The notes beneath the pieces are model-generated. The model was not told where the DNA came from and ran no database searches. It saw only the letters and a program-made list of their open reading frames with translations. A stretch of DNA of 64,000 nucleotides. Source: Hahella sp. HN01 (GTDB lineage: Bacteria > Pseudomonadota > Gammaproteobacteria > Pseudomonadales > Oleiphilaceae). The DNA lies in the NCBI RefSeq assembly GCF_018986435.1, contig NZ_JAHMIN010000004.1, positions 190,503-254,502 on the forward strand, read 5' to 3'. A program made the position numbers and the translations under genes. This document shows, in pieces, positions 1 through 11,701 of the stretch; position 1 is the stretch's first letter; each line of letters starts with the position of its first letter.

Positions 1-303
1 TACGCCGGCGAATTTTTTCACATCGCCGACGACCAGCCGGTCACTCAGCGCGAATTCGTCACCTCCATCGCCAGAGCGCTGGGTAAGACGCGGGTGATGA
101 CCATGCCGAGATGGCTGGTGGCGATCCTGGGCGGCAAGTGCGCGGTGGAGTTCATGACCCTGTCCCAGCGCATCAGCAACGCCAAATTGAAGAGCACCGG
201 CTTCACCCTGAAACACCCGCGTTTTCTCGATGAAGTCGGCGATGTGGTGCGCAGCATGAGACGCGCCCGCGCAGGTCAAAAACTGCAGGCGTCGCCCGCC
301 TGA
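1..303 (+). CDS. Extended SDR (NAD-dependent epimerase/dehydratase family), C-terminal part
   Basis: Open reading frame 1 runs from the window edge to TGA at 301-303, so only about 100 C-terminal residues are visible. The stretch FFHIADDQPVTQREF, followed by a helix and MPRWLVAILGG, is typical of the substrate-binding C-terminal lobe of extended short-chain dehydrogenases (3-beta-HSD/epimerase type). The Rossmann part and catalytic residues lie outside the window. It is followed after 28 bases by the crotonase gene on the same strand, so it probably belongs to the same biosynthetic operon, which ends with a second SDR-like gene. Substrate unknown. Confidence 0.75.
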   Translation, partial: YAGEFFHIADDQPVTQREFVTSIARALGKTRVMTMPRWLVAILGGKCAVEFMTLSQRISNAKLKSTGFTLKHPRFLDEVGDVVRSMRRARAGQKLQASPA

Positions 304-331
304 TTCCCGCAACGCCAGCAAGGAGACAAAC

Positions 332-1732
332 ATGGATTTTCGCTTTATCAACAATCGCCTGGATGAGTCCATCGCCATTCTGGAACTGGACGATCCGTCC
401 GCCAACACACTGACTTACGACCTGCTGCATGAACTGGAATACAAGTTCCTGGCGCTGGAGGCGGACCCGCAGGTGCAGGCGATCGTCATCACTGGCAAGG
501 GCGCGCGCTTTTTCTCCGGTGGAGTGAACATCGGCATGCTGTTGACCGCAGGCAAGAAGTTCAACTCCAACTTCATTCTGTACGCCGCGGAAGTGCTGGA
601 AGCGATCACTCATTCCAAGAAGCTGATCGTCGCCGCCATCAACGGCAACATCACTGGCGGCGGGCTGGAGCTGGCGCTGGTGGCGCACAAGCGGGTGGCG
701 GTGGAAGGCGAGTACAACATCGGTTTCCCGGAAGTGCGCCTGGGCGTTATCCCGGGGATGGGCGGCACGCAACGTCTGACGCGTCTGGTGGGACCGCAGA
801 CTGCGCTGGAAATGATCACCCAGGGGCAGTTCATCAGTGCGGAGCGTGCGAAAGAGATCGGTCTGGTGGACGAGATTTATCCCCAGGAAGGCTTCCTCAA
901 TCGCGCCATCGCGTTCACCCGCGAGCAACTGAACGCGCTGAAACCGGCGCCGACGCTCTCCAGCGAAACCGGCGCGGCGCTGGCGCAGAGCCTGAGCACG
1001 CCGTTCCCCGAAGGATTGGCGACCCTGCGCAAAGAGAACGGGCTGGCGGTGATTACTTTGACCGAAGCCAGCGTCTCGGCGGATGCGTTCTCCACATTGC
1101 GCGCGCTCAACGAACGGCTGCTGGAGGCCCGCATCGACGAAGACGTATACGCCTTGGCGATTGATCTGTCTGCGGGCCTCCTGCGAGCCGACGAGCTGAT
1201 TGATAACGATGACTTTGTGGTCGAGTACGGTCGCAGGGTGTTCTCCCGCATCGACGGCTTCGCCCGCCTGTGCGTGCTCTACTGCAACCGCGCCATGTCG
1301 GAGCTGGAAATGGAACTGGCGTTGGCCTGCGACTTCCGCTTCTGCGACCAGGCCGGATTGACGGCGGAGGTGGCGCTGCCCACGGGCGAGCTGGCGATTC
1401 TGCAACGCTATCCCAGCCAGCTTCCCGCAGCGCTCGCCGGCAAACAAGTGACGTTGGCGCGACTGGTGGAAACAGGTCTGTTCCGTTGCATCGACGAGGA
1501 AGATCCTCTGGCCTGGGTGGCGCGTTACATGACCCGGTTTCTGCCGCCCAACGGCGCCAGCACCGCCATCGGCTACGCCAAGCTGGCCATCAGTAAAGGT
1601 TATGCGGAGAGCATTCCCTCAGCGCTGCTGCTGGAGCGCCACCTGCAGGAGCAACTATTCATCGGCGCGGACAGTCAGGAAGGCATGAGCGCGTACATCG
1701 AAAAACGCACACCAAACTTTAAAGGGGCATAG
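332..1732 (+). CDS. Two-domain crotonase-fold enzyme (enoyl-CoA hydratase / BoxC-like)
   Basis: A protein of 466 aa, much longer than a single enoyl-CoA hydratase (about 260 aa). Residues 1-200 form a full crotonase domain: oxyanion-hole segments near 62-66 (SGGVN) and 105-111 (GNITGGG), and both catalytic-type glutamates, E113 in GGGLELAL and E134 in GFPEVRLG. Residues about 225-390 look like a second, degenerate crotonase fold (SELEMELALACDF without the GGG loop). Tandem crotonase halves are known in BoxC, the benzoyl-CoA-dihydrodiol/epoxide lyase. The next gene is BoxB-like, which supports a role on an aryl-CoA or epoxy-aryl-CoA thioester; simple hydratase or isomerase chemistry is the alternative. 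Start ATG 332 is preceded by AAGGAG. Only 4 bases separate it from the next gene. Confidence 0.75.
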   Translation: MDFRFINNRLDESIAILELDDPSANTLTYDLLHELEYKFLALEADPQVQAIVITGKGARFFSGGVNIGMLLTAGKKFNSNFILYAAEVLEAITHSKKLIVAAINGNITGGGLELALVAHKRVAVEGEYNIGFPEVRLGVIPGMGGTQRLTRLVGPQTALEMITQGQFISAERAKEIGLVDEIYPQEGFLNRAIAFTREQLNALKPAPTLSSETGAALAQSLSTPFPEGLATLRKENGLAVITLTEASVSADAFSTLRALNERLLEARIDEDVYALAIDLSAGLLRADELIDNDDFVVEYGRRVFSRIDGFARLCVLYCNRAMSELEMELALACDFRFCDQAGLTAEVALPTGELAILQRYPSQLPAALAGKQVTLARLVETGLFRCIDEEDPLAWVARYMTRFLPPNGASTAIGYAKLAISKGYAESIPSALLLERHLQEQLFIGADSQEGMSAYIEKRTPNFKGA

Positions 1733-1736
1733 GAAA

Positions 1737-2924
1737 ATGGCCGCCATTAACGAATACACCATTGATAAGAAGTATCACGACGCGTTGATCGAATGGCAGC
1801 GCAAGAACTTCCCGGACATCGGTCTGCTGGAGAAGTATTGGGATGTCTACTTCCCGAATGATCCGGCCTGGCGTTTGACCGCCAAGCTCTCCGAAGTGAA
1901 AGCGGACCTCATCAATCAGGGCAAGTATCAGGGCGTGAAGAAGTACGCCACCGCCCGCGAGATGAAAGGCTCCATGCTGTATCAGGCGCTGCGCATCATC
2001 AAGGCCCAGTGCAGCACCGAGCTGGGTTCCATCCAGCAGCATATGGACACCGTGAACACCTGCTACACGGATAAGGCGAAGTTCAGCGTGCTGCGCATCA
2101 TGGCGGAAGAGTTTCGTCACGCTTACCAGATGTTCTGGGTGTTGTCTCACGACCCCAGCTGGTCCACCACCGGGTCCAGCCGCATCGCGGAAAACACCCT
2201 GGACGAGCTGTTGTCCATGAACACCGGCTCCCATGTGCTGGACGCGTTCAACATTCCTTTTACGGACTCGCTGGATAACGTCACTTTCGCCTGCTTCATC
2301 GACCGGGTGGGGCGCTTCCAGCTCACCATGCAGGAAGAGTTCGCCTACGCGCCCATGGCCGCCAGCATGCGTCCCATGCTGAAAGAAGAAGCCTTCCACC
2401 TGAAAACCGGTTGGGAAGTGCTGAAGGAAATCTGCGAAATGGCGGCGGTAGGCGAAGGCCCTTGGACCCTGGCGGACATCCAGAAAAAGATCAATCTCTG
2501 GTATCCCCGCGCGCTGGAAATGTTCGGCAGCGAGGAGGGCGGCGAGTCCAACCTGGAATTCAGTTTCAAAACCATGTCCAACAAAGAGGCGATTGGCGGT
2601 TACATCAAAGAGATCGAGTGGCTGCTCAACTCTCTTAACGCGGCCATCTTGCAGCGTCGACATCCTGAACTGAGCAAGGAGCAGGTGCGTCTGATGGCGA
2701 AAGAAACCGCGATTCTGCGGCTGCCTTCGACTCGCTTCCTGCGCTTCCGCAGCGGCGAGGGGATACATGAGTCCACTTTCGATGTGGATGGCAATCGCAT
2801 CAGCCCCTTTGAATACATCAATTACCTGACCCGTGTGCTGCCGGAGAAACTGTGTAGCACGGAGTACTTCAGAAGCTACACGGACAGGATTCGTCAGGCG
2901 CTGCCGACCATGACGGCGGCGTAG
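1737..2924 (+). CDS. BoxB-like diiron oxygenase (aryl-CoA epoxidase family)
   Basis: A 395-aa helical, ferritin-like protein. It shows two ExxH motifs, E125-FR-H128 (in EEFRHAY) and E218-AF-H221 (in KEEAFH), plus E95 and D189, giving six possible iron ligands. The spacing (30 residues E95-E125, 29 residues D189-E218) matches my memory of the benzoyl-CoA epoxidase BoxB ligand set. BoxB inserts oxygen into the 2,3 bond of benzoyl-CoA. This protein is shorter than BoxB (about 470 aa). The BoxA reductase that feeds BoxB is not visible here, so electrons must come from elsewhere. Its neighbours, a crotonase and a benzoate-CoA-ligase-like domain, fit an aryl-CoA substrate. Other members of the wider diiron family (PaaA, AurF types) are less likely alternatives. 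Confidence 0.7.
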   Translation: MAAINEYTIDKKYHDALIEWQRKNFPDIGLLEKYWDVYFPNDPAWRLTAKLSEVKADLINQGKYQGVKKYATAREMKGSMLYQALRIIKAQCSTELGSIQQHMDTVNTCYTDKAKFSVLRIMAEEFRHAYQMFWVLSHDPSWSTTGSSRIAENTLDELLSMNTGSHVLDAFNIPFTDSLDNVTFACFIDRVGRFQLTMQEEFAYAPMAASMRPMLKEEAFHLKTGWEVLKEICEMAAVGEGPWTLADIQKKINLWYPRALEMFGSEEGGESNLEFSFKTMSNKEAIGGYIKEIEWLLNSLNAAILQRRHPELSKEQVRLMAKETAILRLPSTRFLRFRSGEGIHESTFDVDGNRISPFEYINYLTRVLPEKLCSTEYFRSYTDRIRQALPTMTAA

Positions 2925-2960
2925 ACGGGGACCTTGGACAGACACGGCACATTAATACGG

Positions 2961-4493
2961 ATGGATAAAGTTATGTACGACGTTGCAATCATCGGATCAG
3001 GATTCGGAGGCGCCGCAAGCGCCATCATGCTGGCGAAACTGGGCCACACTGTGGCGCTGATTGAGAAGGGCAAGCACCCGCGCTTCGCGCTGGGCGAATC
3101 GACTACGCCCATCATGAGTAAGACGATTCGGCATCTGGGTCAGAAATACGACATTCCCGAGTTCGTCAATCTGGCCAGTTACGACACCATCATGAACGCG
3201 CACATGCCGATCACCTGCGGACCCAAGGAGCTGTTCCACTACTTCTGGCATGAACCTGGATTGTCCTCCGCCAAACTGAGCAATGGCGCCGTGCCGGAAA
3301 TCATCGTGCAGACGCCGGAAGTGGACACGCAGTTGTACCGTGCGGAGAGCGACAAATATCTGGTGGACGTGGCGATCAGCTACGGCGCGGATTATTTCGA
3401 GGAAACCACCGTTGAAGACATTGAATTCAATGACGACGGCGCGGTGATCAAGTGCTCCCGTCCAGACGGAAGCGCCAGCGAAATCAAGACCAGGTTCATC
3501 ATCGACGGCACCGGCCATCGTTCGCTGATTTCCCAGCGTTACGACCTGATTGTGCCGCAGGAAGAACTGGATACGCCGCTGAAAAGCCGCAGCATTTTCA
3601 CTCACTTCAAGGATATCGGCGACTTCGAAAGCAGTCTGGAATGCGATGACGCCTTTATCGGACGCACCCCGGTTCCGCGTATTCGCGGCACCCAGCACCA
3701 CTGCTTCGACGGCGGCTGGATCTGGTTCATCCCGTTCGACAACGGCGTCACCAGTGTGGGGCTGAACCTGGATATCGACACCTATCCAATCAATGACAAA
3801 ACCGGGGAAGAAGAATTCTGGGAGATCATCGGACGTTATCCGATTGTCGAAAAGATGTTGAAGGGACGCGAAACCTTGATGCCGTTTATCAAGACCAAAC
3901 GCATTCAGTTTCGCACAAAACAAGCGGTCGGCGATCGTTGGGCCATGTTGCCGGGTTCGGCGGTAGGAGGTGATGGTTGGTTTAGCACCGGACTCGGCTT
4001 TACCTTACTTTGCGCACATCGCATCGTAGACATGCTGCATACCAAGATGCTCAAGGACGACGACTTTTCCCGTCAATATCTGGAGAACTACGAAACCGCG
4101 CTGTTCAAGGAGTGGAAGTACGTCTGCCGCATGGTGGACGGCATCTACAAGAGCATGCGCCACTTCGAAGTGTTCAAGTACTACTGCTTCTTCTGCTTCA
4201 TGGGCGCGGAGAGCTTCGTGCACCGTGGCGGCATCAAACGTCCGCACGATCTCAAGTTCCTGCTGCTCAACGTCGGCGACGACAACTTCGTCGCCAAGTT
4301 CGAAGAGTTCTACACCATGGTGAAGGACCTGCATGAACGCGATGAGGTGACCCAGGAGCAGCTCGATTATCTGCGCGATTTCGTGCGCTTCGAAATGAAA
4401 GACTACAACTACCGGGATTACGGCAACCCCATTTACGGCGGCGTGCACCGTCGGTTGGACAAGTCATCCCGATACTTCGCGGAATTGGCCTGA
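2961..4493 (+). CDS. Flavin-dependent halogenase-like monooxygenase
   Basis: A 510-aa FAD protein. The N-terminus has a GxGxxG-type dinucleotide site (GSGFGG, residues 12-17) and GEST at 45-48. W253-I-W255-F-I257-P258 matches the WxWxIP signature of flavin-dependent halogenases, and GDGWFSTGLGFT near 337-348 resembles their second flavin/halide segment. By hand alignment K89 falls where the halogenase lysine is expected, but the surrounding residues (GPKELFHYFW) are unusual, so chlorination or bromination is not assured; hydroxylation or another flavin oxidation is possible. A flavin reductase partner is not encoded nearby. ATG 2961 was chosen over an upstream TTG at 2934, since translation from it starts shortly before the Rossmann strand; ATG 2973 is also possible. 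Part of the same plus-strand operon. Confidence 0.7.
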   Translation: MDKVMYDVAIIGSGFGGAASAIMLAKLGHTVALIEKGKHPRFALGESTTPIMSKTIRHLGQKYDIPEFVNLASYDTIMNAHMPITCGPKELFHYFWHEPGLSSAKLSNGAVPEIIVQTPEVDTQLYRAESDKYLVDVAISYGADYFEETTVEDIEFNDDGAVIKCSRPDGSASEIKTRFIIDGTGHRSLISQRYDLIVPQEELDTPLKSRSIFTHFKDIGDFESSLECDDAFIGRTPVPRIRGTQHHCFDGGWIWFIPFDNGVTSVGLNLDIDTYPINDKTGEEEFWEIIGRYPIVEKMLKGRETLMPFIKTKRIQFRTKQAVGDRWAMLPGSAVGGDGWFSTGLGFTLLCAHRIVDMLHTKMLKDDDFSRQYLENYETALFKEWKYVCRMVDGIYKSMRHFEVFKYYCFFCFMGAESFVHRGGIKRPHDLKFLLLNVGDDNFVAKFEEFYTMVKDLHERDEVTQEQLDYLRDFVRFEMKDYNYRDYGNPIYGGVHRRLDKSSRYFAELA

Positions 4494-4524
4494 TCAACTG
4501 AGAAATGACCACGGAGAGGACAAC

Positions 4525-7500
4525 ATGGTTGCGAGTAATCTTGATCCTATAAGCGTTGATGTCGTCGTAGTGGGCGGAGGCATCGCGGGGTGCTGGACGG
4601 CGCTGAAGCTGTTGCGCAAGGGTATCCCCACCGCCATCGCCTTTTACAGCGATAGCGATCGGGGCGGCAAGCTGGGCGCTTCCGCCTTGTCGGTGGGCGC
4701 CATCAACACCTCTCCGTTGACGCGCGGGGATTATCTGGAATGGTTGACCGACCTGGGGCGCGGACAAGAGCACTCCGACGTCGGCGCCATCACCAGAAAT
4801 CACCTGGCGTCGGAACTGGATGCGCTGCTGGAGTTCGACGCGCTCAAGAACATCCAACTGGGTGTGGCGCTTAAATCCGGTTCCGGTCGACATCTGTTGG
4901 CGCGGTTGCTGCAGGAAATCCGTTATCTGGGCGGCGTCGTTTTAGACAACGCCTGGGTGACCCGCATCGTCGCCGACGCCAAGCGTTGCCATGGCGTGCA
5001 GTATCAAAGCGGCGATCAAATCGGAGCGGTGTACGCCGGCGCGGTGGTGCTGGCTTCCGGCGGCTATTCCGGCCTGTTCCATGGTTCGGTGAAAACCGGC
5101 ACCTACGGTTCCGTGCACGGTCGTCATCTCGCCGCCGGCGGCTGGTTGAGCAATCTGGAGTTCGTATTCAAACACGGCTACGGACAACCGGACCTTGGCA
5201 CCCTGACGCCGACGGAAGAACTGCCTGGCGCGGAAATCTATGACGAGAACGGCGAACATGTGGACTGGCTGGAGCAGGAACTGTTCTACGGACGCGGCAC
5301 CAGCAACCACTTCCAGGCGTTCATGACCTGGCGTAAGGGCGGCGATCTCAAATACTACGTGGACTTCCGCTATCGCGAACTGCACCGCAGCATCAAACGC
5401 ATCGCCGTAGTCGGCTCCGACGACATCGAAGATATCTGTGCGGACAAAGAAGCGCTCATCGCCGGTCTGGTGGAGCGCTGCCCGGAAGCCAGTCAAGACG
5501 CTCTGCGGGAGATTCTGGAAGCGGTGAACCGGCATGAACGGGAATACAACTTTGAGACGTTCAGCGAGATCAAGGCGCTGGTCGCGGACGCTTATCCGGT
5601 GGATCGCAGCCGCATTCGTCAGATCTCCTATTTCTCCATGGGCGGCGTGGCCCACCACAAATTCAAAACCAACCTGAAGAACGTGTTCGTGTGCGGCGAA
5701 GCCATGCACGACTACGGCGCTCATCGGGTCGGAGGGTTGCCGTGGGCGTTGTATCTCTGCGCCGCCAAAGTGATTTCAGAAAAGATCGACTTGCTCAAGC
5801 GGCAGGGACATTTGCTGTCTACGCCGTTCGAGCTGGATGACAAAGCGTCCGCCTATGACAAGAAGTTGGTGGCGGAGTTGCAGCAGGGATTGCAGCGCTA
5901 TCAGGAAAGCGGCGTGGATGTGGAAGGCGCGGCAGCCTTCGCCGACTGGATTCGGGATCAACGACGCACGCTGACGGCGCAACACCGGGAACTGGATGAC
6001 GTGGTGGCCTATCTGCTGGTGGGCGAGGCCATTATGCGCTCCTCCCTGGCCCGGCAGGAAAGCCGCGGCTGTTTCTTCCGGGACGATTTCGGGGATGAAA
6101 ATCCCGCCCTGAGCTCACAACGGACGCTGACCCGCTATGACTCAGAATCCGATGAAGTACACGCGGAGCTGATCAGCGCCGAACAACTCTCCGCAATGAT
6201 AGACAGAGGGCGATTAGCGATGGACGACAAATCTTTGATAAGCAGCGCGGCCACAAAAAACGCGGCTTACTTTCTGTTGAAAAAGCATGTTGAAACCGGA
6301 CTTGGCGGCAAAGCGGCGGTGGAGACGCTTGACGTTTCATACACTTACGACGAACTGTGGAGCCTGACCAGTCGATACGCCGGTTTCCTGAAAGCCAGCC
6401 GCATCGACGAGGGCGACCGTGTGGCGTTGCTGCTGAACGACCGTCCCGAATATCTGGCGATGTTCCTGGCGACGCAGCAAATCGGCGCCATCGCGATCCC
6501 GCTCAACACCTTCTCGAAAGAGCAGGAATTGACCCATTATCTGGAGGATTCCGGGGCCAAGCTGCTGATCACCGAGGCGGAACTGGTGGCTCGTTACTCC
6601 GTAGAGCAGATCAACGAGCAGACCCATGTGGAAGTGGTCAGCTACGAGGACATCGCCACCTCCCGCATGGAGCCGGTGGAGGATATTCTTCCGGTCAGCG
6701 ATGAAACCATCGGCTTCATTCTCTACACCTCCGGCAGCACTGGCAAACCCAAAGGCGCGATTCATCGCCAGGTGAGCATGGGCTTCAGCGCGGAGAATTT
6801 TGCGCGCAAAACCCTGAAGATCAACGACCGCGACCGTATTTTCTCTTCCTCCAAGTTGTTCTTCGCTTATGGACTGGGCAATTCGCTGTACTTCCCATTG
6901 TACTTCGGCGCCACCGCGCTGTTGTGCAGCACCAAGGCGGCGCCGGAAGTGATTCGCGATATTTTGGGGCAACTCAAGCCGACGGTTTTCTTTGCGGTGC
7001 CGGCGGTGTATCGCGGCATCCTTGAAGGCGGCGGCGCAACGGAAGACAACTTCCGCTCCGTACGCTTGTGCGTCAGCGCCGGCGAAGCGCTGCCGATCAA
7101 GCTGGCACAACAGTGGTGCGCCGCCACCGGCGTGGAAGTGCTGGATGGCATCGGCAGCACTGAGGCGTTGCATATCTTCTGCGTCTCCAACCATTCCTCC
7201 GCCAAGGAAAGCTATTACGGCCGCGCTGTGCCTGGCTATGAGCTTTGCGTGTGCGATGAGAACGGCAAAGTCCTGACGGAAAACGCCATCGGCGAGCTGC
7301 GGGTGAAAGGGCCTACCCTGGCGCAGGGTTATTGGAACAATCCCGCCAAGACGGCGGAAACCTTCTACGACGGATCGCTGTTGACCGGCGACCGCTACTT
7401 CGCCAACGACAAAGGCGAGTATGTCTTTGTCGGCAGACATGGCGACACCTACAAATCCTCCGGCCTGTGGGTTTCCACTCTGGAGATCGAAGCGGTGCTG

Positions 7501-7824
7501 GGTGAGCTGGCGGCGGTGGCGGAGTCCTCCGTGGTGGTATTCCAGGGCAACGACGGGCTATTGAAATCCAAAGCCTATGTGGTGGCCCGGGAAGCGGAAA
7601 GCTTCGAGGACAAACAGCGGGTGGAGACGGATACGCACCGCTTCCTGCGGGAGCGTCTGCCTAAATACAAAACCCCTCATTGCGTGGAGGCGCTGGACGA
7701 ACTGCCCCGCACCGCCACCGGCAAAATCGCCAAGGCGATCCTGCGGGATATGGCTCAGGAAGTCATCTGGGCCAGACCGGTGAGAGAAAGCGCTCCAGAA
7801 CGGGAGCTGAACATGGCGCAGTAG
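4525..7824 (+). CDS. Fusion protein: NadB/FrdA-like flavoprotein + benzoate-CoA-ligase-like domain
   Basis: One uninterrupted 1099-aa frame joins two enzymes. Residues 1-565 resemble L-aspartate oxidase / fumarate reductase flavoproteins: FAD site GGGIAG at 17-22 and a C-terminal FAD segment (MGGVAHHK, FVCGEAMHDYGAHRVGG) around 372-402 with a candidate catalytic Arg in HRVGG. Residues 566-1099 are a complete acyl-adenylate-forming ligase of the benzoate-CoA ligase family: P-loop YTSGSTGKPKG at 734-744 and the A10 lysine K1067 in PRTATGK. The ligase half has the full length of a stand-alone benzoate-CoA ligase, and M566 (base 6220) could serve as an internal start with AGAGGG about 11 bases upstream. 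The likely job is activation of an aromatic acid to its CoA thioester coupled to a flavin redox step on the acid or a related intermediate. Strong GGAGAGG precedes ATG 4525. Confidence 0.8.
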   Translation: MVASNLDPISVDVVVVGGGIAGCWTALKLLRKGIPTAIAFYSDSDRGGKLGASALSVGAINTSPLTRGDYLEWLTDLGRGQEHSDVGAITRNHLASELDALLEFDALKNIQLGVALKSGSGRHLLARLLQEIRYLGGVVLDNAWVTRIVADAKRCHGVQYQSGDQIGAVYAGAVVLASGGYSGLFHGSVKTGTYGSVHGRHLAAGGWLSNLEFVFKHGYGQPDLGTLTPTEELPGAEIYDENGEHVDWLEQELFYGRGTSNHFQAFMTWRKGGDLKYYVDFRYRELHRSIKRIAVVGSDDIEDICADKEALIAGLVERCPEASQDALREILEAVNRHEREYNFETFSEIKALVADAYPVDRSRIRQISYFSMGGVAHHKFKTNLKNVFVCGEAMHDYGAHRVGGLPWALYLCAAKVISEKIDLLKRQGHLLSTPFELDDKASAYDKKLVAELQQGLQRYQESGVDVEGAAAFADWIRDQRRTLTAQHRELDDVVAYLLVGEAIMRSSLARQESRGCFFRDDFGDENPALSSQRTLTRYDSESDEVHAELISAEQLSAMIDRGRLAMDDKSLISSAATKNAAYFLLKKHVETGLGGKAAVETLDVSYTYDELWSLTSRYAGFLKASRIDEGDRVALLLNDRPEYLAMFLATQQIGAIAIPLNTFSKEQELTHYLEDSGAKLLITEAELVARYSVEQINEQTHVEVVSYEDIATSRMEPVEDILPVSDETIGFILYTSGSTGKPKGAIHRQVSMGFSAENFARKTLKINDRDRIFSSSKLFFAYGLGNSLYFPLYFGATALLCSTKAAPEVIRDILGQLKPTVFFAVPAVYRGILEGGGATEDNFRSVRLCVSAGEALPIKLAQQWCAATGVEVLDGIGSTEALHIFCVSNHSSAKESYYGRAVPGYELCVCDENGKVLTENAIGELRVKGPTLAQGYWNNPAKTAETFYDGSLLTGDRYFANDKGEYVFVGRHGDTYKSSGLWVSTLEIEAVLGELAAVAESSVVVFQGNDGLLKSKAYVVAREAESFEDKQRVETDTHRFLRERLPKYKTPHCVEALDELPRTATGKIAKAILRDMAQEVIWARPVRESAPERELNMAQ

Positions 7825-7885
7825 CGCCGCACTCTAAACGCCGACGTTGGGATGGGCCCGGCGCGGCGGACTAATAAAAAAACTT

Positions 7886-7930
7886 CCCCCAAAGAAACTG
7901 ATTCCGCCTACGGGCGGAGGAGGTGGGGGG
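7886..7930 (+). other. Hairpin in the intra-operon spacer before the methyltransferase gene
   Basis: Inverted repeat: ccgcc (7904-7908) pairs with ggcgg (7913-7917) across a 4-base loop, and an outer run ccccc (7886-7890) can pair with gggggg (7925-7930). It lies in the only long spacer (138 bases) of the cluster. No T-run follows, so it is more likely an RNA-processing, stabilising or attenuating structure than a simple terminator. It may set lower expression for the downstream genes. Confidence 0.4.
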
Positions 7931-7962
7931 CTCTAAACAATACTCTTACGGAGAGAAGTAGA

Positions 7963-8730
7963 ATGAGCTTCAGTAACCCAAAGTACTATTCAAACACGGC
8001 CACACTTTACAGCGCGGCTTTGGATGAGGGTGACTACCACGATTGGAAAGACTCCATCATTACAGGCCTGATGGGATTCATCACCCCGTTCCCGGAGAAG
8101 ATGCGCATCAACCGCGCGTTTGTCCGGCAGATGTACGAGGGCTACCAGCAGGAAGGCTTCAACAATATTCTGGATATCGGCGCCGGCCCCATTCCCCGAG
8201 GTCATGAGTGGGCGACCGAAGCCAATATCATGTACGTCGATCACAACCCGGACATCGTTGAGCATGCGCGCAGAAAACTGCCCGCCGGCGCCAGCGCAAG
8301 ATACGAAACCTCCAGCGTCGGCGCGTTGCCAGGGCTGCTGGAAAAAGGTCTGGTGGACGGCTTCTTCGATGATTCCAGAAAAGTGGCTTTCGGTTCCAAC
8401 GCGGTGTTGATGTTCGTGGACGACGCGGAAATCAAGAGCACCTTCCAATACCTGTACGACTGGTGCGCGCCGGGCTCCGTGCTGAAAATCAGCACCACCG
8501 GCATCACCGGATCGGAGAGCGACCTGCGCGCCAAGTTCATTCGCACCTTCTTCAAGAAGGTCAATGCGCCCATGCACATTCGTAACGTGGACAAGTTCTG
8601 CGAACTGTTTGCCCCCTGGAAAGTCACGCGTCGCCCCATGCCGTTGTGGGAGTGGGTGAACTGGCCGCCTTCCAAAATGACGGCGGGCATCGGTTTCGAT
8701 ATCTACGGTATTGAACTGCGTAAAGAGTGA
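7963..8730 (+). CDS. SAM-dependent methyltransferase
   Basis: A 255-aa class I methyltransferase. Motif I is LDIGAG at residues 70-75, followed by an acidic strand end (YVDHNPDIVEHAR) for the ribose of SAM. The layout, with NRAFVRQ before motif I and VDHNPDIVEHAR after it, resembles the S-adenosyl methyltransferase family first seen in actinobacterial secondary metabolism (PF04672-like). The frame is open upstream to 7852, but ATG 7963 with GGAGAGAAG in front is the credible start. It sits in the putative aryl-CoA cluster and probably O-, N- or C-methylates the product. Acceptor unknown. Confidence 0.75.
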   Translation: MSFSNPKYYSNTATLYSAALDEGDYHDWKDSIITGLMGFITPFPEKMRINRAFVRQMYEGYQQEGFNNILDIGAGPIPRGHEWATEANIMYVDHNPDIVEHARRKLPAGASARYETSSVGALPGLLEKGLVDGFFDDSRKVAFGSNAVLMFVDDAEIKSTFQYLYDWCAPGSVLKISTTGITGSESDLRAKFIRTFFKKVNAPMHIRNVDKFCELFAPWKVTRRPMPLWEWVNWPPSKMTAGIGFDIYGIELRKE

Positions 8731-8801
8731 TTCGCGTCAGGCATGCCGAGCGGTTCGCCCGCTCTTCCCATGGATCGCGGTTAACGCACGAGGAATAAGA
8801 T

Positions 8802-9848
8802 ATGGATAACATACACAAGGACATCCCTTTCGGGAGTCCGGTTCAGGTGGGGCAGGGCGTATTCCTGCTGAAAATGCCGCTGCCGTTTCGCCTGGATCAT
8901 ATCAACCTGTATCTGATCGATGATCAGGACGGGTGGATTCTGGTCGACACCGGCCTGAATCATCGCGCTGTGCGTGAGACATGGGAAGCGTTGGCGGATA
9001 CGGTCTTCCAGCAAAAGCCGATCAAGAAGATCCTGATCACCCATCTGCATCCGGATCATATTGGTCAGGCGGCCTGGCTGCAGCGCCGCTTCAAGGCGGA
9101 CGCCTATATTTCCGAAGGGGACTGGCTGATGGCGCAGCGGCTGTGGTTTTCCCCTGCGGAAAGCGCGATTCCCCGCTACGCGGCGCACTACCGGGCGTTT
9201 GGCGTGGACGGGGAGCGCTTCGAGCAACTGATCGAAAACCGCGGCAACTATCAGCGTCTGGTGAAGGAACTGCCTTTACAGGTCAAGTTCCTGCGCACTG
9301 GCGATATCATCAGCGCGGCCAGCGGCGACTGGCGGGTGGTCAGCGGCAGCGGTCATTCTCCAGAGCATCTGTGTCTGTGGAATGAGGCCAGCCGTGAGAT
9401 GATCACCGGCGACCACGTGTTGCCGAAAATCACCCCGAATATCGGCATTATTGTGGGCGGTCTGTCTAACCCACTTGAAAACTACCTGTTGTCCCTGGAG
9501 GATTTTCTGGCGATTGATTGCGCCAGATATTTCCCTGCCCATGGACTGCCTTCAGAGAACTACCATGAGCGCATCGCTGAGATCAAAATGCATCATCATC
9601 GGCAGTTGCAGAAACTTTTGAGCGGTTGCGGCGAACCGACCACTGTGTTCGAAGCGGTGGGCATGCTGTTCAATACGGAACTGCCGCCTCACCAGTATAT
9701 GTTTGCGCTGGGAGAGACCGCCGCGCACCTGCGTTATCTTGAAAGCATCGGGTTGATGCATCGCGAGGGCGAGAAAACCTGGTCTTTCAAATCCGTCTCC
9801 CAAGCCGACCAGCAGAGGGAGGAAACCGCCTGCGCGTCTTCGGTGTAA
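8802..9848 (+). CDS. Metallo-beta-lactamase-fold hydrolase
   Basis: A 348-aa protein with the metal motif H81-L-H83-P-D85-H86 (HxHxDH), then GSGHSPEH and MITGDHVLP, which supply the further His and Asp ligands. Residues about 255-348 form an extra C-terminal region of the winged-helix kind found in LACTB2-like MBL proteins. Members hydrolyse thioesters, esters, lactones or phosphoesters. In this cluster a thioesterase or lactonase role releasing a CoA-bound product would make sense, but this is inference. GAGGAATAAGAT precedes ATG 8802; the next gene starts 4 bases after its stop, so the two are co-translated. Confidence 0.8.
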   Translation: MDNIHKDIPFGSPVQVGQGVFLLKMPLPFRLDHINLYLIDDQDGWILVDTGLNHRAVRETWEALADTVFQQKPIKKILITHLHPDHIGQAAWLQRRFKADAYISEGDWLMAQRLWFSPAESAIPRYAAHYRAFGVDGERFEQLIENRGNYQRLVKELPLQVKFLRTGDIISAASGDWRVVSGSGHSPEHLCLWNEASREMITGDHVLPKITPNIGIIVGGLSNPLENYLLSLEDFLAIDCARYFPAHGLPSENYHERIAEIKMHHHRQLQKLLSGCGEPTTVFEAVGMLFNTELPPHQYMFALGETAAHLRYLESIGLMHREGEKTWSFKSVSQADQQREETACASSV

Positions 9849-9852
9849 GGTC

Positions 9853-10890
9853 ATGACGGAGAGGAGCAGCGGGGTGTTCAAGGTCAGGAAAGTTCTGGTG
9901 ACCGGCGCGACGGGGTTCGCCGGGAGCCATATTCTGGAAGCGCTGAGTCGAGTCCCAGGAATCCGGCCTATCGCCGCCTGCCGTCATCCCGGCGCACTGC
10001 CGGCGGAAGTCTGTTGCGAAGTGCGCGAAGGCGATTTGCGTGACGCCAATTACATCAAGGATGTGTGCCGGGGCGTGGATGTGGTGATTCACGCAGCGGC
10101 CTGGACGTCTCTGTATGGTCATCGCGAAAGTTCGCAACGCCTGTATTTCCAGCCGACCCTCGGATTGATCGAGGCGGCGCGGCAGGCGGGCGTGAAGGTT
10201 TTCATCAACACCAGCACTGCTTCCGCCGCCGCGCCGGAGCGTTCCTCGGACCCCTATAGTCCAGGCGTCGAGCCTCCTTATTGGCCGCACCTGTGTAATC
10301 TGGTGCGCATCGAAAATATCCTGCGCGGATACGCTCGCGACTGGTTTAAGGTGATTAACCTGCGCATGGGGATTTATGTCGGGCGACGTTATCGCGTCGG
10401 TTTTCTGCCGATATTGCTGCCACGCCTGAAAACACGGCTGATTCCCTGGATTCGCGGCGGCAAAACCAGCTTGCCCCTGATCGATGGTCGCGATATCGGT
10501 CAGGCGTTTTCTCTGGCGGCGCAATGGACGCCGGGAGAAAACTTCGCCGCCTTCAATATTGTCGGTTCCGGCCCGCCCAGCGTGCGTGAAGTGATCGAAT
10601 ACATCGCCGACCGGCATCAGATTCCCAAACCCTGTTACAGCGTGCCGTTTCCCGTCGCCTATGGCGTGGGCGAACTGATGGAGCTGATTGATCCCTTGAT
10701 GCCCTTTGACCCATTGGTTACCCGCAGCCTGATTCACTTGCTGGAGGAAACCGGGGCTGACAACAGCCGCGCGACCGCTGTGCTGGGCTATCAGCCGCAG
10801 ATCGACTGGCGACGCTCCATTGACGAACAAATTGAAGAAATATGCCGCCAGAAAACCCTGGCGCCTATGCATAATTTGTTGGAGACCTGA
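9853..10890 (+). CDS. Extended SDR-like NAD(P)-binding protein without canonical Tyr-Lys pair
   Basis: A 345-aa extended SDR: NAD(P) motif TGATGFAG at residues 17-24, acidic strand end (EGDLRD, 59-64), IHAAAW (79-84) and NTSTAS (119-124, candidate active-site Ser). The usual YxxxK dyad is not found where expected: residues 143-154 read YWPHLCNLVRIE, aligning with typical YGxSKxxxE so that His/Leu replace Tyr/Lys. The protein may bind nucleotide without normal hydride transfer, or use a different acid. It closes the plus-strand cluster and mirrors the SDR at the window's left edge. The start ATG 9853 lies 4 bases after the MBL stop. Confidence 0.75.
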   Translation: MTERSSGVFKVRKVLVTGATGFAGSHILEALSRVPGIRPIAACRHPGALPAEVCCEVREGDLRDANYIKDVCRGVDVVIHAAAWTSLYGHRESSQRLYFQPTLGLIEAARQAGVKVFINTSTASAAAPERSSDPYSPGVEPPYWPHLCNLVRIENILRGYARDWFKVINLRMGIYVGRRYRVGFLPILLPRLKTRLIPWIRGGKTSLPLIDGRDIGQAFSLAAQWTPGENFAAFNIVGSGPPSVREVIEYIADRHQIPKPCYSVPFPVAYGVGELMELIDPLMPFDPLVTRSLIHLLEETGADNSRATAVLGYQPQIDWRRSIDEQIEEICRQKTLAPMHNLLET

Positions 10891-10970
10891 GAGTCTGTTT
10901 AAATTACGGACCTATCGGTAAGTTGTGCGCAGCCTGCGCCGCGCCGTGGATATGGGAAATGGATCGCATA

Positions 10971-11309
10971 ATGGAATCTCTTTTGTCCTTCATCAACAAT
11001 TCTGTCTTATGGCTGGTCTATATTGTTCTGGACCTGCCCGGCGAAATCAGCGCTCGCAATGCCGCAGAGCGCCATCAGCGCAACTTGAGCGCGCTGGAAG
11101 CGACGCTGAAGGAAGGTGGCCAAGCCAGCTCGACCATCATTTCCGATGGCGAGCGCATGCAGGCGGTTCTTTACTATGATGGGGAATTCAGGGCGACCCT
11201 TAAGGGGGAAGAAAAGGAGTCGACAACGATGGGTTTTCAAACCATCGACGCGCTGGATGAATACTTAACAAACTCAACGCCTTTCAGGGCGCGTGACTTT
11301 ATTGCGTAA
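10971..11309 (+). CDS. Hypothetical protein
   Basis: A 112-aa protein I do not recognise. The N-terminus MESLLSFINNSVLWLVYIVLDL is hydrophobic and could be a membrane anchor, followed by a charged soluble part. ATG 10971 is chosen because GGGAAATGG lies about 8 bases upstream; ATG 10959 or a TTG at 10923 would lengthen it. It lies 80 bases after the SDR gene and just before another small unknown gene; whether it belongs to the preceding biosynthetic operon is unclear. Confidence 0.55.
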   Translation: MESLLSFINNSVLWLVYIVLDLPGEISARNAAERHQRNLSALEATLKEGGQASSTIISDGERMQAVLYYDGEFRATLKGEEKESTTMGFQTIDALDEYLTNSTPFRARDFIA

Positions 11310-11347
11310 CACCATGCTTAAAATAAAAAAGACGGAAAGGATTCATT

Positions 11348-11701
11348 ATGAATAAAGACATCTGGTTGATTTATCACAAGTCCTCACTCAGCCCCCGTTC
11401 GTCCATCAATATGGACGGCTCCGATTACATGGTCGGCGTCAGCGCCGTTCCCGCCAGAGAGATGATGGAAGCCATTGAGCTATTCAAAGAGCATCTGCGG
11501 GAAGACTACATGGCCCCCATGGAGTTGTGGAAGTGCGTGAAATGGGGCTCGGGCGATTATGGTCTGGAAAGTGAAATCGGCGCGGATATCGAAGAATCCG
11601 TCACCCTTGCTCAGGCCAGCAACACCACCATCACCACCGGTATTTCCTCCGAATTTCTGGCTGACCTGGAGGAAGAGCTTGTTGTGGTGAAGTCTGAGTG
11701 A
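11348..11701 (+). CDS. Hypothetical protein
   Basis: A 117-aa acidic protein (MNKDIWLIYHKSSL...), no signal peptide or membrane segment seen. GGAAAGGATTC precedes the ATG, a good ribosome site. It follows the previous small gene by 38 bases and is probably co-transcribed with it. No family recognised. Confidence 0.65.
   Translation: MNKDIWLIYHKSSLSPRSSINMDGSDYMVGVSAVPAREMMEAIELFKEHLREDYMAPMELWKCVKWGSGDYGLESEIGADIEESVTLAQASNTTITTGISSEFLADLEEELVVVKSE

Follow-up and report, generated by a model that had tools for sequence, protein, structure and literature searches.

The forward-strand gene at 1737-2924 of the window (the whole 64,000-nucleotide stretch of Hahella sp. HN01 DNA that was analysed, G000:C58:190503-254502, from an assembly of 7.13 Mb in 134 contigs) encodes a BoxB-like diiron oxygenase, P0001. 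On balance it is probable that this protein is an aroyl-CoA ring oxygenase, of a clade apart from BoxB, which is used for the biosynthesis of a halogenated aromatic compound. The assignment draws on the open reading frame, family scans, a fold model, a tree and an alignment. The reading frame is intact, comprises 395 residues without an internal stop, and starts after a spacer of four bases behind the stop codon of a crotonase gene. Within the genus, three further genomes carry the gene at 99% identity and three lack it, so that it is present in four of the seven genomes when that of strain HN01 is counted.

The protein belongs to the PaaA_PaaC superfamily (PF05138; 31.2 bits, gathering cut-off 28.5), with its relatives L005 and L003 scoring 40.2 and 26.5 bits, the latter slightly below the cut-off. 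Phmmer matched it to BoxB (3per) at 5.1e-10, and its best sequence match in the PDB is SSO1313 of Sulfolobus (4mud, 1.3e-11). On the NCBIfam BoxB model (TIGR03225) it reaches 53.8 bits versus a curated cut-off of 499.1, while the BoxB controls L018 and L067 score 735.4 and 733.3 bits; an identity as PaaA (TIGR02156) was rejected at 30.0 bits versus a cut-off of 280. A fold model built from ten sequences has a mean pLDDT of 85.2 and a pTM of 0.86; six of the ten input rows are BoxB proteins, which may bias it towards BoxB. An earlier four-row model lacking BoxB rows was poor (pLDDT 66) and still ranked BoxB first, at lower confidence. Foldseek placed BoxB chains at ranks 1 to 11 in the PDB (best 1.2e-12). 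The superposition on BoxB proposed in the earlier note came out clearly: with VIA-align 2, the predicted model matches BoxB residues 9-434 at Z 32.2 over 345 residues (2.8 A), far above PaaA (23.0), as well as SSO1313 (23.4) and the azoxy synthase VlmB (16.1), and PaaC-type and MMO-type chains also gave lower scores. The predicted resemblance to BoxB is beyond chance, as the Pfam scan, phmmer and the superposition of the model agree on it.

The iron ligands of BoxB are E120, E150, H153, D211, E240 and H243, according to an excerpt of PMC5489048. They align one to one with E95 (codon 2019-2021, corresponding to the Fe1 ligand E120), E125 and H128 (2109-2120), D189 (2301-2303), and E218 and H221 (2388-2399) of the window protein, all on the forward strand, which substantiates the BoxB-type ligand set read earlier from the letters alone. 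The spacings are 30/3/61/29/3 in the window protein versus 30/3/58/29/3 in BoxB. In a 53-row alignment none of the 50 BoxB-type rows departs from the six ligands, and neither do two of the three rows classed as PaaA-like by size and a weak score rather than by a family scan; in the third, short one (L009), a glutamate replaces the aspartate. The earlier note had put the protein about 75 residues below BoxB, and it is indeed about 78 residues shorter than L018 (473) and L067 (475); as an argument against BoxB this length is weak, because proteins of 437-449 residues from viral contigs pass the BoxB cut-off. Seven BoxB loci on viral contigs were found in IMG/VR, and all six of those tested pass the cut-off and carry all six ligands (L094 4698-6011, L095 4500-5849, L096 4668-6083, L098 3024-4337, L099 2177-3490 and L100 4698-5501). 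In L094, L095, L096 and L098, phage-type genes stand nearby, among them ones for a DnaB-like helicase, an SbcC-like protein, a peptide deformylase and an endolysin-like protein, and the L098 protein has no match among 50,697 phage records; a phage auxiliary gene is a possible reading of these viral-contig BoxB genes.

The substrate pocket is conserved in part. An excerpt of PMC5489048 describes Q116 of BoxB as making two hydrogen bonds to benzoyl-CoA, and credits T119, S123, F193, F203, F206 and T210 with positioning the benzoyl group. Every one of the 50 BoxB-type rows retains the equivalents of Q116, T119, S123 and F193, and the F206 position holds F or Y. The F203 position is N in all 14 rows of the clade of the window protein and F in the 36 others; T210 is I in 14/14, with T there in the BoxB group (19 of 19) and V or I in the short acidobacterial proteins (17 rows); R188 (a number read off the pairwise alignment to BoxB) is H in 14/14 and R in the 36 others; and the F204 position is V or I in the clade. 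In the window protein the positions of F203, F204 and T210 are taken by N181, V182 and I188. We infer from this alignment that the thioester side of the pocket is kept and its ring side changed.

A 52-row tree recovers BoxB as one group (19 rows, support 100/100) with the window protein outside it, which bears out the suggestion that this is not a true BoxB. Plain membership in BoxB was rejected on this exclusion and on the score of 53.8 versus 499.1 bits. The window protein groups with its L003 and L004 homologues (100/100), then with eight acidobacterial proteins (99/97) and with three more (100/99), giving a clade of 14 of the 52 rows, 11 of them acidobacterial, which is separate from BoxB. 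A tree forcing BoxB together with the three cluster rows was rejected (p-AU 2e-53), a constraint that also splits those rows from their acidobacterial kin. Forcing BoxB together with the whole 14-row clade was not rejected (p-AU 0.34); the choice between this clade and the short acidobacterial proteins as nearest to BoxB carries the same p-AU of 0.34, and long branches meet there.

The lineage is a rare one. The gene cluster occurs in two other assemblies (L003 and L004), and the clade is also found as lone genes in some Acidobacteriota. In that phylum, to which L005 belongs, 77 of 297 genomes match at 1e-10 or better: eight at 5e-169 or better (one being the L005 genome), three near 1e-110, 17 at 3e-46 to 2e-32, and the remaining 49 at 1.8e-24 and weaker, two of which (L066 and L067) were placed in the tree and group with BoxB. 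Among 369 genomes of the class, 390 of the order and 398 of the phylum of strain HN01, its own genome gave the sole clade-level match; 16 others of the 369 have weak matches (3e-19 or worse) in the BoxB range, and nine of 58 relatives gave weak matches alone (8e-8 to 4e-4). Plasmid records yielded 12 distant matches, seven of them annotated boxB. A Nonomuraea plasmid protein qualifies as BoxB on its similarity of 59-62% to three rows of that group and has a crotonase-like frame nearby. Phage records gave no match, and viral contigs queried with two further alignments gave no relatives. The 11 acidobacterial clade members (L005 10001-11260 and genes of L039-L048) lie in fetched stretches from which the cluster genes are absent: no halogenase, ligase, methyltransferase or close crotonase match was obtained in any of the 11, and three have weak, distant crotonase matches. 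Since these lone genes make up 11 of the 14 members, the cluster is not a requirement for having the enzyme, which speaks against the biosynthetic reading. The G+C content of positions 1-10890 is 0.581 versus 0.536 in the rest of the window, and together with the tree this hints at a transfer from Acidobacteriota.

The operon genes between positions 1 and 10890 lie on the forward strand. The window opens with the 3' end (1-303) of an NAD-epimerase-type gene (L002 17323-18303) whose start lies upstream, as seen from scans and the flanking sequence; past it come genes for a nitroreductase and a Dabb-domain protein, as well as divergent LolA-like, porin-like and MMPL genes. The crotonase (332-1732, 466 residues), recognised by family scans and comparisons, has two related halves, of which the N-terminal one resembles short-chain enoyl-CoA hydratases and the crotonases found beside short acidobacterial BoxB-like genes. 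Behind the diiron gene, 2934-4493 (likely start near 2961, where the frame starts in two sister genomes) encodes an FAD enzyme related to CtcP (1.3e-61) and PltM (1.5e-47), its best solved relatives being a tetracycline 7-halogenase (7xgb) and PltM. Aligned with CtcP and PltM, it keeps the lysine of a GxK stretch and a WxWxIP stretch, which we take to mark flavin-dependent halogenases; by relatives and motifs it is a putative flavin-dependent halogenase. The next gene (4525-7824) is a fusion of a fumarate-reductase-like flavoprotein domain (4525-6219, boundary approximate; from a scan and structural relatives, those solved being weak ones only) with a benzoate-CoA-ligase-family domain (6259-7752; TIGR02262, 397.5 bits versus a cut-off of 375.25). 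The ligase half is 35-38% identical to ligases in four of five fetched BoxB loci; the fusion is also present in L003, and among 350 genomes of the class it was found in that of strain HN01 only. Scans further identified a SAM methyltransferase (Methyltransf_19; 7852-8730, start possibly at 7963 as in the L003 homologue), a metallo-beta-lactamase-fold hydrolase (8802-9848), which we would guess to be a thioesterase, and an NAD-dependent epimerase/3-beta-HSD-type dehydrogenase (9853-10890) that has no match at 1e-5 in L003. Two small genes follow at 10923-11701 (128 and 117 residues, 91-99% conserved in two genomes of the genus); they gave no Pfam or NCBIfam match and none in L003.

L003, a Marinagarivorans metagenome-assembled genome, holds eight genes from nitroreductase to metallo-hydrolase in the same order at 42-74% identity: nitroreductase 42%, dehydrogenase 74%, crotonase 50%, diiron protein 67%, halogenase homologue 65%, fusion 51%, methyltransferase 67% and hydrolase 48%. 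It also shares the divergent LolA-like (63%), porin-like (41%) and MMPL (57%) genes and the Dabb-domain gene (36%). L004, which stops within the diiron gene, shows this gene and the crotonase together with a LysR gene and a Dabb gene.

Links with box clusters, which the earlier note had missed along with the phenol-halogenase homologue, are visible in the crotonase and the CoA ligase. A crotonase of 555-593 residues adjoins BoxB in all five fetched loci, with a related ligase in four of the five stretches, and six of ten fetched loci of short acidobacterial BoxB-like genes have a smaller one no more than about 2 kb away. The diiron gene of the window likewise has a crotonase-type partner next door, 34-43% identical to those of the short loci; with BoxC-like proteins this partner shares 27-33% identity along part of its sequence. 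Judged by homology, the operon keeps a box-like core of crotonase, diiron protein and benzoate-CoA-ligase-like domain, to which the CtcP/PltM-like halogenase homologue, the methyltransferase, the metallo-beta-lactamase-fold hydrolase and the export genes are added. The short BoxB-like genes themselves (about 370-400 residues; Acidobacteriota, e.g. L084 4115-11691, L085 1181-10241, L078 81-3915 and L083 373-2949) have, in the ten fetched loci, a NuoE-like [2Fe-2S] gene clearly nearby in four, a NuoF-like NADH flavoprotein gene in three and an aldehyde dehydrogenase gene in four; they possibly represent a ring-opening pathway of the box kind that is supplied by a complex-I-type diaphorase. Within the literature library searched, no account was found that treats BoxB and NuoF together.

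The absence of BoxA, claimed earlier for the window, extends to the whole genome, where no protein passes the BoxA cut-off (TIGR03224). The genome encodes six NAD_binding_1 proteins, none on the contig of the window and none above the BoxA or PaaE cut-off; they resemble NqrF, a flavohaemoprotein, a PPOX-reductase fusion, and Fpr-like, BenC/flavin-reductase-like and GbcB/Hcr-like proteins. Over 24 genomes, which include metagenome-assembled genomes of unstated completeness, BoxA passes the cut-off in one: in none of 17 of the window clade, none of three with short acidobacterial proteins, and one of four with true BoxB as assigned by the tree. The other three (G118, G370 and G388) are BoxB by the tree and have no BoxA above the TIGR03224 cut-off, and true BoxB may often be served by other reductases. 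The missing BoxA therefore says little, and the step taken from it to a different reaction is weak; the changed pocket residues are a better argument for another substrate.

In the role that we favour, the ligase half of the fusion would make the aroyl-CoA, and the diiron enzyme, reduced by a donor other than BoxA or PaaE, would activate O2 and epoxidise the ring beside the thioester-bearing carbon, giving a 2,3-epoxide/oxepin. The crotonase would open or hydrate the epoxide (it could alternatively cleave the ring, as BoxC does), and the dehydrogenases, nitroreductase and flavoprotein domain would re-oxidise the product to a phenol. This phenol would be halogenated by the CtcP/PltM-like enzyme and capped by the methyltransferase, after which the metallo-hydrolase would release the product from CoA and the MMPL/porin/LolA-like set would export it. 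The box-like core, joined to a halogenase homologue, a methyltransferase and export-type genes with no aldehyde dehydrogenase among the operon proteins scanned, points to biosynthesis.

A catabolic box-like route would agree with the grouping of ligase, crotonase and diiron genes as in box clusters. Here an aroyl-CoA epoxidised by the diiron protein would have its ring cleaved by the crotonase, so that the cell could grow on the acid, and the halogenase homologue would be a plain monooxygenase. We consider this route improbable, since neither aldehyde dehydrogenase nor thiolase turned up when the operon proteins were scanned for families, the crotonase is just 27-33% identical to BoxC-like proteins over partial length, methyltransferase and export-type genes are present, and among solved structures the FAD enzyme is nearest to halogenases. 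Less probable still, indeed very unlikely, is a diverged BoxB that performs plain benzoyl-CoA epoxidation with another reductase: the three true-BoxB genomes lacking BoxA and the p-AU of 0.34 for uniting BoxB with the 14-row clade are consistent with it, but the BoxB group excludes the window protein at 100/100, the score of 53.8 bits lies below the cut-off of 499.1, and the pocket residues are changed.

A further rival concerns the oxidation itself. Two residues that orient the benzoyl group in BoxB, F203 and T210, have become N and I in 14/14 clade rows, so the reaction may not be epoxidation; F204 is likewise V/I and R188 is H, and diiron proteins of related fold do perform other oxidations, such as the azoxy synthase VlmB (a weaker match, Z 16.1). 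Direct hydroxylation, amine oxidation or another oxidation on aroyl-CoA is nevertheless rather unlikely, given that the six ligands and Q116, T119, S123 and F193 are the same as in BoxB.

Returning to the biosynthetic role, a bolder reading, more doubtful than the role itself and less likely than not, is that BoxB and the PaaA-containing enzyme are joined here by another class of aroyl-CoA oxygenase that epoxidises the ring. Its ring pocket would be remodelled, and its reductase would be different from both BoxA and PaaE. Some marine gammaproteobacteria would use it exclusively in a dearomatising pathway whose exported product is a halogenated aromatic or an oxepin-derived compound. To our knowledge, the use of CoA-linked ring epoxidation in biosynthesis is tied to phenylacetate enzymes, for tropone compounds (PMC7497051). 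If the proposal is true, the benzoyl-type equivalent found with a halogenase homologue would add a second way from aromatic acids to dearomatised natural products. The invariant pocket changes of the clade make substrate choice in BoxB-like enzymes testable through a few residue exchanges, and the lone acidobacterial genes form an unexplained set of related oxygenases. Within the literature library and the terms used, no published account of this gene cluster was found, and a word search of PMC9030710 gave no wording on halogens, chlorine, bromine, benzoyl, aryl or resorcinol.

Compared with known systems, the window protein is closest to BoxB, the benzoyl-CoA 2,3-epoxidase (3per, 3pm5; TIGR03225), with which it shares the fold, the six ligands, Q116/T119/S123/F193 and an adjoining crotonase gene; it differs in its 22% identity in the structure alignment, in leaving BoxB past residue 434 unmatched, in the replacements of F203 by N, T210 by I and R188 by H, in the lack of a BoxA above the cut-off, and in an operon with a halogenase homologue. 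PaaA of the phenylacetyl-CoA epoxidase (3pvr) has the ferritin-like diiron fold and the ligand set in common with it, but at a lower fold score (Z about 23), and two PaaA-like rows have H/S/G where the window protein has Q91/T94/S98. PaaA normally works with PaaC, and no PaaC was found in the operon scans. SSO1313 (4mud), the best PDB sequence match (Z 23.4), differs in size (235 residues). The short acidobacterial BoxB-like proteins (17 rows) share the short length and have a crotonase near in six of ten loci; unlike the window clade they keep F203 and R188 of BoxB, and some lie beside NuoE/NuoF-like genes. The phenol halogenases CtcP and PltM resemble the product of 2934-4493 in sequence, whereas the window gene has as its neighbours a BoxB-like oxygenase and a CoA ligase in fused form.
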